DNA of 33,719 nt from a virus. The DNA lies in the IMG/VR virus record IMGVR_UViG_3300028384_001258, positions 1 to 33,719 of that record. The stretch is one strand, 5' to 3'. Shown here piece by piece: positions 17,087 to 28,319 of this stretch; the first letter of the stretch is position 1, and the number at the start of each line of letters is the position of its first letter. A program made the position numbers and the translations under genes. The notes beneath the pieces are model-generated. The model worked only from the letters and a program-made list of their open reading frames with translations. It made no database searches and was not told the DNA's origin.

Positions 17087-17740
17087 ATGATACATATTGA
17101 CTGTTCTAGAGAACCTCTAGATTTTTCACAATACGATCTGGCACAAGATGAGATCTTTGTGATCGATAATCTATTTCCATGGTGGTTTGTTCATCACATA
17201 GACAAAACAATCCTGCATGGATTTGGATGGCAATATGGTCTCTGTAGTGGTCATAAAAGTAAATCAGATGGTACTCCAGATTGGGATTATGATAAGGGTG
17301 CCGATTTCGACTTTGAAGTTCCTTGTTTCAAACAATCAATTTATCCACCTAGATCAGAATCTGCAAGTGACAGTGCCTACGGAATGTTGTATAATGCAGT
17401 GGTAGGTTCTATTGATTTCGATTTAGAACTGGGAGAAATCCTAGTAAATGGACAACAATATATCCATAACACTACTATTCATCAGGATTGTAGTTGTGAC
17501 AATGGATTAAGCTGGATTTATTATGTAAATAAAAGATGGGAACCAGAATGGGGTGGTCCAACTATCATTGAACATAATGGAGAAACAGTAGAAGTTTTAC
17601 CAAAACCAGGAAGAGTATGTTTCTTCAAAGGTAATATTCCACATAGAGGTGCTCCTCCCAATGGAGAATATTACCGAGGACTTAGAGCAACTCTAGTATA
17701 TAAAACTATGAGAAAGGATCCCCTACCTACTAGACAATGA
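17087..17740 (+). CDS. Fe(II)/2-oxoglutarate-dependent oxygenase-like protein
   Basis: A 217-residue protein with the double-stranded beta-helix signature. An HxD motif occurs in YIHNTTIHQDCSCDNGLSW, then WGGPTII with a GETVEVLPKPGRVCFF strand pair, the distal His in GNIPHRGAPP, and the 2OG-binding Arg in RGLRATLVYK. These residues bind Fe(II) (H, D, H) and 2-oxoglutarate (R). Members of this superfamily hydroxylate proteins, nucleic acids or small molecules; the substrate here is unknown. T4-like cyanophages often carry such genes. Its stop overlaps the next oxygenase-like gene (ATGA). Confidence 0.8.
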   Translation: MIHIDCSREPLDFSQYDLAQDEIFVIDNLFPWWFVHHIDKTILHGFGWQYGLCSGHKSKSDGTPDWDYDKGADFDFEVPCFKQSIYPPRSESASDSAYGMLYNAVVGSIDFDLELGEILVNGQQYIHNTTIHQDCSCDNGLSWIYYVNKRWEPEWGGPTIIEHNGETVEVLPKPGRVCFFKGNIPHRGAPPNGEYYRGLRATLVYKTMRKDPLPTRQ

Positions 17741-18267
17741 AGAAAGAAATCTTTGCTATTCCAATCTTTGAAGACACTATTGATTTAGAACTATTCAAAG
17801 TTCCTCCATGTAAAGATGGAGAAATTATAGAAACTTGGGATTCAAAAGTTCCAACGTCGTTTAATTCTAAACTAGATATTAGTGAAGATGCTATGCAGCA
17901 TCTAGTCAATGTCATTGAGAGAAATCTTGGTCCTGAGGGTTTAATTGCTATGAATCCTCGCATTGAACATATTTGGAGGAATGTATATAAGGAGAATGAT
18001 TATCAGGATCCACATATTCATCCAGTATGCCAATGGAGTTTTATCATTTATGAAACTGTCAGATCCAAAACATCATTCTTAAATCCCTCATTGGGCATCG
18101 TTCAAGAAAAGTATGGTATGAATTGCCGTGCTTTTCCACCAGACTATAAACCAGATCTGGAACCAGGAAGTATTATTATCTTCCCGTCAATGTTGCTTCA
18201 TTTCGTAAATAGTGGTAATATTGGCAGTACAATCTCAGGAAACATCTACATGGATTATGGAGGATAA
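17737..18267 (+). CDS. 2OG-Fe(II) oxygenase-like protein (2OG-FeII_Oxy_5 type)
   Basis: A 176-residue protein starting in the stop of the upstream oxygenase. Motifs: WRNVYKENDYQDPHIHPVCQ with the H-x-H-P of the 2OG-FeII_Oxy_5 group, then SFIIYETV, LEPGSIIIFPSMLLHFVNSG with the distal His, and TISGNIYMDYG as the closing strand. The last part replaces the usual 'R-x-S-I-A-F-N', so the 2OG-binding Arg is not evident and activity is uncertain. Together with the preceding gene it forms a two-gene oxygenase unit. Confidence 0.7.
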   Translation: MKKEIFAIPIFEDTIDLELFKVPPCKDGEIIETWDSKVPTSFNSKLDISEDAMQHLVNVIERNLGPEGLIAMNPRIEHIWRNVYKENDYQDPHIHPVCQWSFIIYETVRSKTSFLNPSLGIVQEKYGMNCRAFPPDYKPDLEPGSIIIFPSMLLHFVNSGNIGSTISGNIYMDYGG

Positions 18268-18484: not shown

Positions 18485-18621
18485 CTACAAAAACTTTCAA
18501 AAAAATTGACAAAAAAGGTCATGAAGAAATTTGGGAGTGGGAAGAAACTCCCGAACTTCGAGCATTCATCAAGAATCAGTCAACTTCAAAACTGTCCGCT
18601 CCTCCTACAAGACCCCAATAA
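18481..18621 (+). CDS. Very small ORF (46 aa), hypothetical
   Basis: A 46-residue frame starting in the ATGA overlap with the preceding stop. It is Lys-rich at the start (TTKTFKKIDKKGHEEI), has a Trp/Glu segment WEWEETPELRAF, and ends SAPPTRPQ. The coupled start and close fit between the upstream gene and the tRNA promoter argue that it is real. Function unknown. Confidence 0.5.
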   Translation: MTTKTFKKIDKKGHEEIWEWEETPELRAFIKNQSTSKLSAPPTRPQ

Positions 18622-18623
18622 TA

Positions 18624-18632
18624 TGGTATAAT
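18624..18632 (+). promoter_or_regulatory. Extended -10 promoter TGGTATAAT for the tRNA/tmRNA cluster
   Basis: TGG plus perfect TATAAT (18627-18632), identical to 178-186, ends eight bases before the first tRNA. The predicted start of transcription falls at about 18638-18641, so the transcript would begin at or just before tRNA-Met. No -35 box stands out. Confidence 0.6.
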
Positions 18633-18640
18633 AACATAGT

Positions 18641-18713
18641 GCTTCCTTAGCAATCTGGTGAATGCTCCGAACTCATAATTCGGTTAAGGAGAGTTCGATC
18701 CTCTCAGGAAGCA
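18641..18713 (+). tRNA. tRNA-Met (anticodon CAT)
   Basis: A 73-nt cloverleaf: acceptor GCTTCCT / AGGAAGC with discriminator A; D arm GCA...TGC; anticodon stem CCGAA/TTCGG with loop CTCATAA; variable TTAAG; T arm GAGAG-TTCGATC-CTCTC. CCA is not encoded (CTT follows), so the host must add it. A CAT anticodon could also be read as Ile after lysidine modification; the sequence alone does not decide. Confidence 0.88.
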
Positions 18714-18718
18714 CTTAT

Positions 18719-18804
18719 GCGAGTATGGCGGAATCGGTAGACGCACCAGACTTAAAATCTGTTGACTATATAAGGTCGTGGGAGTTCAAGTCTCCCTACT
18801 CGCA
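18719..18804 (+). tRNA. tRNA-Leu (anticodon TAA)
   Basis: An 86-nt class II tRNA: acceptor GCGAGTA / TACTCGC with discriminator A; D loop GAATCGGTAGA; anticodon loop CTTAAAA; long variable arm with GAC...GTC stem; T arm GGGAG-TTCAAGT-CTCCC. CC but no complete CCA follows. It is five bases after tRNA-Met. UUA-reading tRNA suits the AT-rich phage codon use. Confidence 0.93.
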
Positions 18805-18808
18805 CCTT

Positions 18809-18880
18809 GCCCTTGTAGCTCAGTGGTAGAGCAGCGCTTTTGTAAAGCGAAGGTCATCGGTTCAAATCCGTTCGAGGGCT
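18809..18880 (+). tRNA. tRNA-Thr (anticodon TGT)
   Basis: A 72-nt cloverleaf: acceptor GCCCTTG / CGAGGGC with one G-U pair, discriminator T; D arm AGCTC...GAGC; anticodon loop TTTGTAA; T arm TCGG-TTCAAAT-CCG-type. CCA not encoded. It is four bases after tRNA-Leu and directly before the 7-bp hairpin that precedes the tmRNA. Confidence 0.92.
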
Positions 18881-18898
18881 TTCACTCTTTTGAGTGAA
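18881..18898 (+). other. Perfect 7-bp hairpin between tRNA-Thr and tmRNA
   Basis: TTCACTC (18881-18887) pairs with GAGTGAA (18892-18898) around a TTTT loop. No T run follows, so it is not an ordinary terminator. It starts at the base after the tRNA-Thr discriminator and ends where the tmRNA acceptor piece begins, so it may guide RNA processing. Confidence 0.5.
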
Positions 18899-18949
18899 TA
18901 GGTTGCACCATCGACATTTCGGACAGGAGTTCGATTCTCCTCGCTTCCA
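18899..18949 (+). ncRNA. tmRNA acceptor piece (encoded first)
   Basis: This segment would become the short acceptor RNA: the 3' strand of helix 2 (around AGGTTGCACC), the GGAC linker, the T arm, the acceptor strand and the discriminator A, which would take alanine after CCA addition. AGGTT (18900-18904) can pair with AACCT (18997-19001), or GGTTGC (18901-18906) with GCAACC (19012-19017), in the coding piece; one of these probably forms the inter-piece helix. The 5' end is uncertain by a few bases. Confidence 0.82.
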
Positions 18950-18954
18950 CTCAT

Positions 18955-19168
18955 GGGGGCGCAATGGTTTCGACGGGGTATACGGAGTGTGACTGAAACC
19001 TGCTTGGATAAGCAACCAATAGATGCAAAAACATCTGATGTCGCTGCGAACAATATCGTAGCATTCTCCCGCACTCGCGAACTCGCGACTGCCTGAATGG
19101 GAGATCGGGGTTAGACTAGCCTTGTTACCCAAGTAGTCCGTGGGGGTGTAATGCCCCCTTCATTCAGG
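18955..19168 (+). ncRNA. tmRNA coding piece
   Basis: This piece starts at GGGGGCG and carries the D-loop-like GGTTTCGACGGGG, the upstream hairpins/pseudoknot region, the tag frame (19043-19096), and a 3' structured part closed by CCTGAATG (19092-19099) with CATTCAGG (19161-19168). The helix includes the tag's stop codon, as in known tmRNAs. Inside it a G5/C5 hairpin (19142-19146 with 19154-19158) probably belongs to a downstream pseudoknot. Precursor processing is expected to remove the 5-base insert CTCAT at 18950-18954. Confidence 0.85.
19043..19096 (+). other. tmRNA proteolysis-tag reading frame
   Basis: GCT GCG AAC AAT ATC followed by GTA GCA TTC TCC CGC ACT CGC and so on to TGA at 19094-19096. 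It encodes (A)ANNIVAFSRTRELATA. The ANNIV start and the FSR core are as in cyanobacterial tags (I recall ANNIVxFSRxxxPVAA for marine Synechococcus), but the end is ELATA instead of a PVAA-type ending. The resume codon is either GCT (19043) or GCG (19046). Confidence 0.85.
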
Positions 19169-19174
19169 AGTGTT

Positions 19175-19360
19175 ATGAAAATCAACTTATGGTATTCTAA
19201 GAGTATGTCGCAATGGCGATGGACTCTTACCGAAGAGTTTAGGAATGGAGTTACTAAACTAGAACAACATTCTGGTCAACATCCATTTCTTAGAGATGCT
19301 ATGAATGATGTAGCAAACACGGTTGAATATCTTTTGGATGAGCACACCAATCCCAAGTAG
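19175..19360 (+). CDS. Small protein encoded between tmRNA and tRNA-Asn
   Basis: A 61-residue protein: INLWYSKSMSQWRWTLTEEF, then RNGVTKLEQHSGQHPFLRDA and a helical C-terminus. The start at ATG 19175 is set by AGGAG (19166-19170) four bases upstream; an ATG at 19151 in the same frame would lie inside the tmRNA helix and lacks a site. The ribosome-binding site overlaps the 3' strand of the tmRNA closing helix, and the stop codon (19358-19360) lies inside tRNA-Asn, so RNA folding or processing could control expression. Trp-rich opening resembles small cyanobacterial/cyanophage hypothetical proteins; function unknown. Confidence 0.6.
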   Translation: MKINLWYSKSMSQWRWTLTEEFRNGVTKLEQHSGQHPFLRDAMNDVANTVEYLLDEHTNPK

Positions 19361-27557: not shown

Positions 27558-28319
27558 ATGAAAATAAATTTTGTCGAACCTAATGAAATTAGAGTCAATC
27601 CAGATGCTATCATCAACAACAAAAATATTGGGGAGAAAAATCACCCTCTTATTGTTGTTGATGATTTTTTACTAAATCCAGATCAATTAGTCAACGATTA
27701 TACTAGACACATTCCTGTTGCTCTCAATACTTTGAATTCGGAATCAGTCATACCTGGGTGGTATGGAGAATTGCCACATAGATTTATAGAAATTGACACA
27801 TCCATTAATCATTTAATTCATTTATTCACAGATATTACTTTAAGTGATAAAGAAATAAACACTTTTTCGTGGTCGTATCAGTTAAATGTATTGGCGGGTG
27901 GAGTCCAATGTGCGAGAAAAAGTGTGCAACCGCATGTTGATCCAGCAATGTTTGCATGGGTTTTATATCTAAATCCAGAGGAAGAATGTAAAGGAGGAAC
28001 TTCTTTTTACAGACATTCTGAAGCTGGAGATATGAATCTTGAATATGTTGAAAGGTCTTGGAAGAGAACAACTGAATATTGGAAATATAAAGAGTGGCAA
28101 TTTGAAAAAATAAGAAATCATGAAAATGAATATGTTGATCTTGATGTAAATTCAATGGACGACTCTTGGGAAGAATATCATTTTGTAAATATGAAATATA
28201 ATAGACTCGTTCTATATCCATCATATATTTTCCATAGTGCTCAAATTAAAAAAGATTGGTTTGTGGAATATCCAAGAGTAAGTATTTCTGGATTTATTAA
28301 GTCATCATATTTTACCTAA
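27558..28319 (+). CDS. DUF6445-like putative Fe(II)/2OG oxygenase, second copy
   Basis: A 253-residue protein, paralogue of the 19524 gene. Shared marks: VVDDFLLNPDQLVNDY near the start, HxD in VQPHVDPAMFAWVLYLNPEE, CKGGTSFYRHSEAG, and the distal His in YPSYIFHSAQIKKDWF. The HxD...H triad for Fe(II) is intact. It lies directly after the tail fibre and one base before another oxygenase gene, so it may act on a virion or host surface component, though no substrate is known. Confidence 0.75.
   Translation: MKINFVEPNEIRVNPDAIINNKNIGEKNHPLIVVDDFLLNPDQLVNDYTRHIPVALNTLNSESVIPGWYGELPHRFIEIDTSINHLIHLFTDITLSDKEINTFSWSYQLNVLAGGVQCARKSVQPHVDPAMFAWVLYLNPEEECKGGTSFYRHSEAGDMNLEYVERSWKRTTEYWKYKEWQFEKIRNHENEYVDLDVNSMDDSWEEYHFVNMKYNRLVLYPSYIFHSAQIKKDWFVEYPRVSISGFIKSSYFT

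Follow-up and report, generated by a model that had tools for sequence, protein, structure and literature searches.

A phage-encoded, circularly permuted tmRNA of cyanobacterial type and the varied tag endings of its viral relatives

A virus of marine cyanobacteria, represented by a 33.7-kb record analysed over its full 33,719 nucleotides (the window), encodes a cyanobacterial-class tmRNA in circularly permuted form. tmRNA rescues ribosomes that have stalled and adds a tag to incomplete proteins. We put at roughly 0.8 the probability that this phage gene is a working one, whose RNA would be processed by the host and would tag stalled products with ANNIVAFSRTRELATA. Its relatives form a viral lineage of their own, in which tag ends that are often unlike any host tag in our sample may change the fate of tagged proteins.

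Covariance models and gene prediction identify the gene at 18881-19158 on the plus strand, Rfam and ARAGORN agreeing over its full length. The match to cyano_tmRNA (RF01851; window 18868-19157, model 1-288, full length) scores 143.3 bits (E 2.5e-39) against a cut-off of 70 bits, and that to tmRNA_permuted (RF04321), also full length, 82.7 bits (E 1.3e-14) against 47 bits. ARAGORN calls a permuted tmRNA (tmRNA*) here. The acceptor piece precedes the coding piece, all 7 positions of the acceptor stem pair, with G-U at the third (G3-U70, 18957/18946) and the fourth, and a short tag frame with its stop lies between hairpins, a pseudoknot following downstream (Table 1). One P2 position is unpaired in this copy, 18915 facing 18980 as C-A. 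The folding z-score relative to shuffled sequence is -4.1, and Rfam found no riboswitch in the window. A sequence-only reading had proposed a phage-encoded permuted tmRNA within the tRNA array, with its parts at these positions, acceptor strands paired over 7 bp, and the phage's own tag sequence and stop; each of these holds at the level of sequence, and the Infernal/Rfam search it suggested as a check returned the cyano_tmRNA match rather than no covariance-model hit. ARAGORN's first call in the region, a tmRNA at 18533-18950 with the tag APDLKSVDYIR..., was rejected because three tRNA genes lie within it.

Table 1. Features of the window tmRNA and of related viral loci
Feature	Position	Strand	Basis or remark
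tRNA-Thr (TGT)	18809..18880	+	ARAGORN; 3' end adjoins the leader hairpin, which starts at the next base
Leader hairpin TTCACTC-TTTT-GAGTGAA, 5' end of acceptor piece	18881..18898	+	Sequence, cyano_tmRNA alignment, MFE fold
3' acceptor piece	18899..18949	+	cmscan alignment, pair counts
P2 strand of acceptor piece	18901-18921	+	cmscan alignment
T arm	18925-18941	+	cmscan alignment
Acceptor 3' strand CGCTTCC	18942-18948	+	Sequence, cmscan alignment
Discriminator A	18949	+	CCA not encoded
Intervening sequence CTCAT, 5 nt	18950..18954	+	Sequence; viral relatives have 4-6 nt here, or a tRNA; presumably lost from mature RNA
Acceptor 5' strand GGGGGCG	18955..18961	+	G3 (18957) pairs with U70 (18946)
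Conserved CAATGGTTTCGA (D-loop region) and P2 5' strand (18974-18994)	18962..18994	+	cmscan; compensatory changes in P2
Two pre-tag hairpins (19001-19014; AGATG/CATCT, 19021-19036)	19001..19036	+	Second: two pairs changed on both sides
Tag frame ANNIVAFSRTRELATA (19046-19093) and stop TGA (19094-19096)	19046..19096	+	Frame as in the ARAGORN call; a start one codon upstream, at GCT 19043, is also possible
Hairpin of tag 3' half and bases after stop	19065..19104	+	Alignment helices 6-8
Pseudoknot: stem CGGGGT/GCCTTG; loop GACTA (19114-19118) with TAGTC (19134-19138)	19106..19138	+	5/5 pseudoknot pairs changed on both sides
Terminal hairpin GGGGG-TGTAATG-CCCCC, 3' end of coding piece	19142..19158	+	cmscan, alignment, MFE fold
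Promoter-like (T)TGACA-N17-TACTAT	L008, L010, L013, about 1935-1975 of each		S-CAM1, S-CAM3, AG-345-P14
Insert tRNA-Tyr(GTA)	L223, L233, L242, L248, L279, L346		Viral contigs
Insert tRNA-Asn(GTT)	L232, L243, L273, L302, L303, L304		Viral contigs

The same gene exists in a cultured phage. Synechococcus phage Sf-FS3, isolated on WH8102, carries a tmRNA 100% identical to the window copy within a 1000-base stretch that is 99.9% identical; its record annotates the tRNAs and leaves the tmRNA unannotated. Window proteins match T4-like tail genes (baseplate wedge, tail tube cap, DNA end protector, tail tube and baseplate hub), and the array runs tRNA-Met(CAT), Leu, Thr, tmRNA, Asn, Ala by ARAGORN. A consensus promoter scan around the array gave no match. 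Just ahead of it, TGGTATAAT (18622-18636) resembles an extended -10 element, which the scan did not report for want of a -35 match. In S-CAM1, S-CAM3 and AG-345-P14 a promoter-like sequence immediately precedes the tmRNA; the window copy has a tRNA there instead. Some annotated coding sequences collide with these genes: SfFS3_24 (window 19151-19360) overlaps the tmRNA, starting inside the terminal hairpin, with ATG 19175 the likelier start, and SSSM7_025 and N170310_215 fall within tmRNA sequence (L007 1994-2212; L008 1974-2099) and are probably spurious. Oxygenase-like proteins lie beside the tRNA array and the fibre gene (window 17087-17740, 17737-18267 and 27558-28319); Sf-FS3 annotation just upstream of the array names a prolyl 4-hydroxylase-type 2OG domain and a JmjC domain, and 27558-28319 gives a weak 2OG-Fe(II) oxygenase match.

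Related tmRNAs are widespread in viruses, occurring in about 100 viral contigs among the matches listed from scans of IMG/VR for core and tag patterns. With the tmRNA alone as query, blastn returned 16 phage records, among them Sf-FS3 and, at ~73-76% identity, S-SSM7, S-SSM6a, S-CAM1, S-CAM3 and AG-345-P14; a divergent copy lies in the freshwater phage S-CRM01. The plasmids searched hold no relative of the window tmRNA. The search for the same gene order in other cyanophages, suggested from the sequence beforehand, found it in S-SSM7, S-CAM1, S-CAM3, AG-345-P14 and S-CRM01. In the records examined for these five and S-SSM6a the gene is unannotated, as it is in Sf-FS3; phage tmRNAs often are, and a translation-rescue function of marine cyanophages is therefore being overlooked. 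Apparent non-permuted viral copies proved an artefact, the T-loop GGTTCGAC having been mistaken for the core; the copies inspected have the permuted order. Separately, tmRNA-like cores of other, non-cyanobacterial types appear in further viral contigs, at L044 1378-1392 and in L325, L326, L314 and L333; a candidate tag frame with an AA end accompanies some of them.

Our comparisons use a cleaned set with a readable tag: at least 104 viral and 111 host loci, with 77 and 106 distinct 5' pieces. Host loci were collected by T loop plus core with no tag condition, and viral loci by core or tag start, the tag end never being a criterion. The tag frame is open to its stop in 104 viral copies, selected for a tag start of AN[N/K]I[V/I]. 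Within 160 nt upstream of the core, tRNA-Thr(TGT) is the nearest tRNA in 24 of 104 viral loci; in the 111 host loci that interval contains no tRNA at all.

Compensatory changes reveal that the RNA structure is maintained across viruses. We aligned 43 distinct viral copies and scored them for the structure of the window copy; L287, one of the rows, comes from a copy with a nested tRNA and has tRNA sequence in its upstream part. The proposed structure pairs in 90.1% of cells, and 29 of 69 pairs have changed on both sides. Double-changed cells number 270; shuffles give 95.6 (sd 9.8), and controls with slid partners no more than 52. This excess over about 96 is what establishes maintenance of the structure. 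Covariation extends to all five pseudoknot pairs downstream of the tag. At the third position of the acceptor stem, 42 of 43 copies have U-G and the other has C-G; this G-U is described as completely conserved and an AlaRS determinant (PMC3985003). Covariation together with this alanine identity determinant is strong evidence that the viral RNA works as a tmRNA, although processing and tagging lie outside what covariation shows.

From this structure we infer how the RNA would be processed, charged and used for tagging, and how it might benefit the phage. The tmRNA would be transcribed together with the tRNA array. Host tRNA enzymes probably cut the precursor, RNase P at 18955 and 3' processing after 18949, after which CCA would be added; the acceptor and coding pieces would stay joined through the acceptor stem and P2. 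Recognition of G3-U70 would let host alanyl-tRNA synthetase charge the RNA, and host SmpB and EF-Tu would bring it to ribosomes stalled on broken mRNA, where ANNIVAFSRTRELATA would be added to the stalled product. The search for SmpB was positive in control genomes but gave no gene in Sf-FS3 or in 8 other virus records that carry a tmRNA, so the RNA presumably depends on host SmpB. Ribosome recycling with the phage's own tag is a plausible role; selection might instead maintain the structure for a competitive or inhibitory function without productive tagging.

The viral tmRNAs form an old lineage rather than one captured recently. Phylogenetic analysis of 65 viral and 30 host sequences puts viruses and hosts at opposite ends of one branch of length 0.39 (support 100/99), which is present in all 200 bootstrap trees; the tree is unrooted, draws on few columns, includes several long viral branches and does not give the direction of transfer. 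The window copy falls outside the host sequences, and the clean division excludes recent host capture for this sample. The capture from a cyanobacterial host proposed from sequence can therefore stand only as a remote origin, and a single ancient exchange is the simplest reading. The 5-base insert, thought unusual beforehand, is in fact the commonest viral length, followed by 4 and 6 nt, and picocyanobacterial host inserts also begin at 5 nt, ranging to 27 nt, an upper value set by the search pattern.

Tag endings distinguish viruses from hosts. All 106 distinct host sequences (for example, tag ANNIVRFSRQAAPVAA) end their tag in VAA, while the middle of the tag varies. The 77 distinct viral tags end in VAA (27), ATA (19), VTA (13), ALV (9), VAV (4), VSV (2), VPA (1), VVA (1) or ATV (1), so that 50 of 77 lack a terminal AA. 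Nearly all keep the start ANNIVxFSR, and this N-terminal half is common to hosts. The window tag ends in ATA, threonine replacing the penultimate alanine, and departs from the usual, though not strict, AA-type degron. S-CAM1 and S-CAM3 encode ANNIVAFSRSTVAA, AG-345-P14 ANNIVVFSRIRQLATA, and S-SSM7 the 24-residue ANNIVAFSRILTREFARTDELVTA, with an extra in-frame hairpin. The last belongs to a clade with 24-25-residue tags and that hairpin (L007 2139-2213, from S-SSM7, and relatives including L204, L206 and L302; one such tag is TTCTCTCGTATTCTTACGAGAGAA), a long-tag type apparently of single origin. When tag columns are masked, the resulting tree calls for some 12 changes between AA and non-AA ends in viruses, at least 3 of them forced by well-supported branches, and none in hosts. 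The endings LATA, LVTA and STVAA recur on different backbones; L282, a near relative of the window copy, has an STVAA end on a similar backbone, which suggests that the tag end is exchanged as a module.

Two refinements of the working-tmRNA reading account differently for these endings. The first, to which we give somewhat less than even odds, is that the phage copy supplements host tmRNA with a normal degradation tag and frees ribosomes during mRNA destruction, its tag end drifting under weak selection. The complete conserved structure, the open tag frame and the N-terminal half held in common with hosts all fit this account; the recurrence of LATA, LVTA and STVAA on different backbones is not obviously drift.

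The second, a possibility we hold more loosely, is that the phage tmRNA frees ribosomes with a tag that host Clp recognises less well or differently, which would uncouple rescue from host-type degradation. The contrast between 106 of 106 host tags and 27 of 77 viral tags ending in AA points this way, as do the repeated switches confined to viruses. The C-terminal ALAA needed for ClpXP and ClpAP is highly conserved except in Mycoplasma, which is without those proteases and whose tag end AFA is an accepted exception (PMC3985003), and in E. coli degradation is slower with the AAV variant than with LAA (PMC9382460). Because C-terminal AA is a recognised Clp signal in E. coli, altered proteolysis of viral tag ends is a reasonable hypothesis. 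Against it, host tags here end in PVAA rather than LAA, cyanobacterial Clp may accept threonine for alanine, and 27 viral tags keep AA. The tag 3' end also sits within an RNA hairpin (helices 6-8), so some tag changes may follow RNA constraints. An invariant host end beside a labile viral one offers a test of whether phage trans-translation recycles ribosomes yet alters the fate of tagged proteins.

It is very improbable that the gene has lost its function and persists as a relic, or that recombination with a host gene left it behind as a passive remnant: lytic phages do carry imported host genes, and ssrA fragments are known in prophages (PMC9004378), but covariation contradicts this reading, as do deep viral diversity, the intact G3-U70 pair, the clean split from hosts and an intact gene in isolates.

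The insert itself can carry a gene. A complete tRNA, Tyr or Asn, lies inside the tmRNA insert of 12 viral contigs among the matches listed, and of 0 of 111 host loci; the window copy, with its 5-nt insert, is not one of them. L287 looks like a thirteenth such form, clipped by the locus end. Six rows with odd acceptor stems proved to hold a nested tRNA, and the covariance models align full length across it. Removal of the tmRNA insert is attributed to RNase P and tRNase Z (PMC3985003), so a nested tRNA could be released by the very cuts that excise the insert. These forms suggest that the excised piece of a permuted tmRNA can be a useful RNA itself. In the literature searched, supplementary tables aside, we found neither the tag-end contrast nor recurrent viral nested tRNAs, and an earlier description is possible. 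A broader synthesis, which we regard as speculative and rather unlikely as a whole, would have an independent cyanophage tmRNA lineage in which selection has reshaped the tag end away from VAA, so that ribosomes are rescued and products spared or rerouted, with part of the lineage serving also as a tRNA container that yields three RNAs per processing site.

The window gene belongs to an already known kind. Phage-borne and two-piece tmRNAs, which the sequence-only reading had called rare, are published and recurrent in marine phages (PMC9004378): a survey of 18,146 genomes assigned 53 of 133 distinct phage tmRNA structures to the two-piece form, 50 of them aquatic, and named AG-345-P14, and the 2025 tmRNA database holds 79 phage tmRNAs. 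The closest system is the cyanobacterial two-piece tmRNA (RF01851; ssrA of Synechococcus, Prochlorococcus and Cyanobium), with the same permuted order, leader hairpin, P2, T arm, G3-U70 acceptor stem, ANNIV tag start, downstream pseudoknot and terminal hairpin. Viral copies differ in occupying their own side of the tree, often within tRNA clusters, with inserts mostly of 4-6 nt, a tag often without an AA end and, in most aligned copies, an extra pre-tag hairpin. Other cyanophages (S-SSM7, S-SSM6a, S-CAM1, S-CAM3, AG-345-P14 and S-CRM01) have the same permuted gene with different tags. The two-piece tmRNA of methylophage Melnitz and pelagiphages is likewise phage-borne, permuted and marine, but is of alphaproteobacterial type with a predicted glutamine riboswitch (PMC9004378), a feature for which Rfam gives no match in the window. 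A permuted tmRNA with tRNA-Ala nested in its intervening sequence, from one nominally archaeal genome and called unique in the 2025 database paper (PMC11915505), resembles the 12 viral relatives in holding a complete tRNA in its insert, whereas the viral nested tRNAs are Tyr or Asn and the insert of the window copy is 5 nt.
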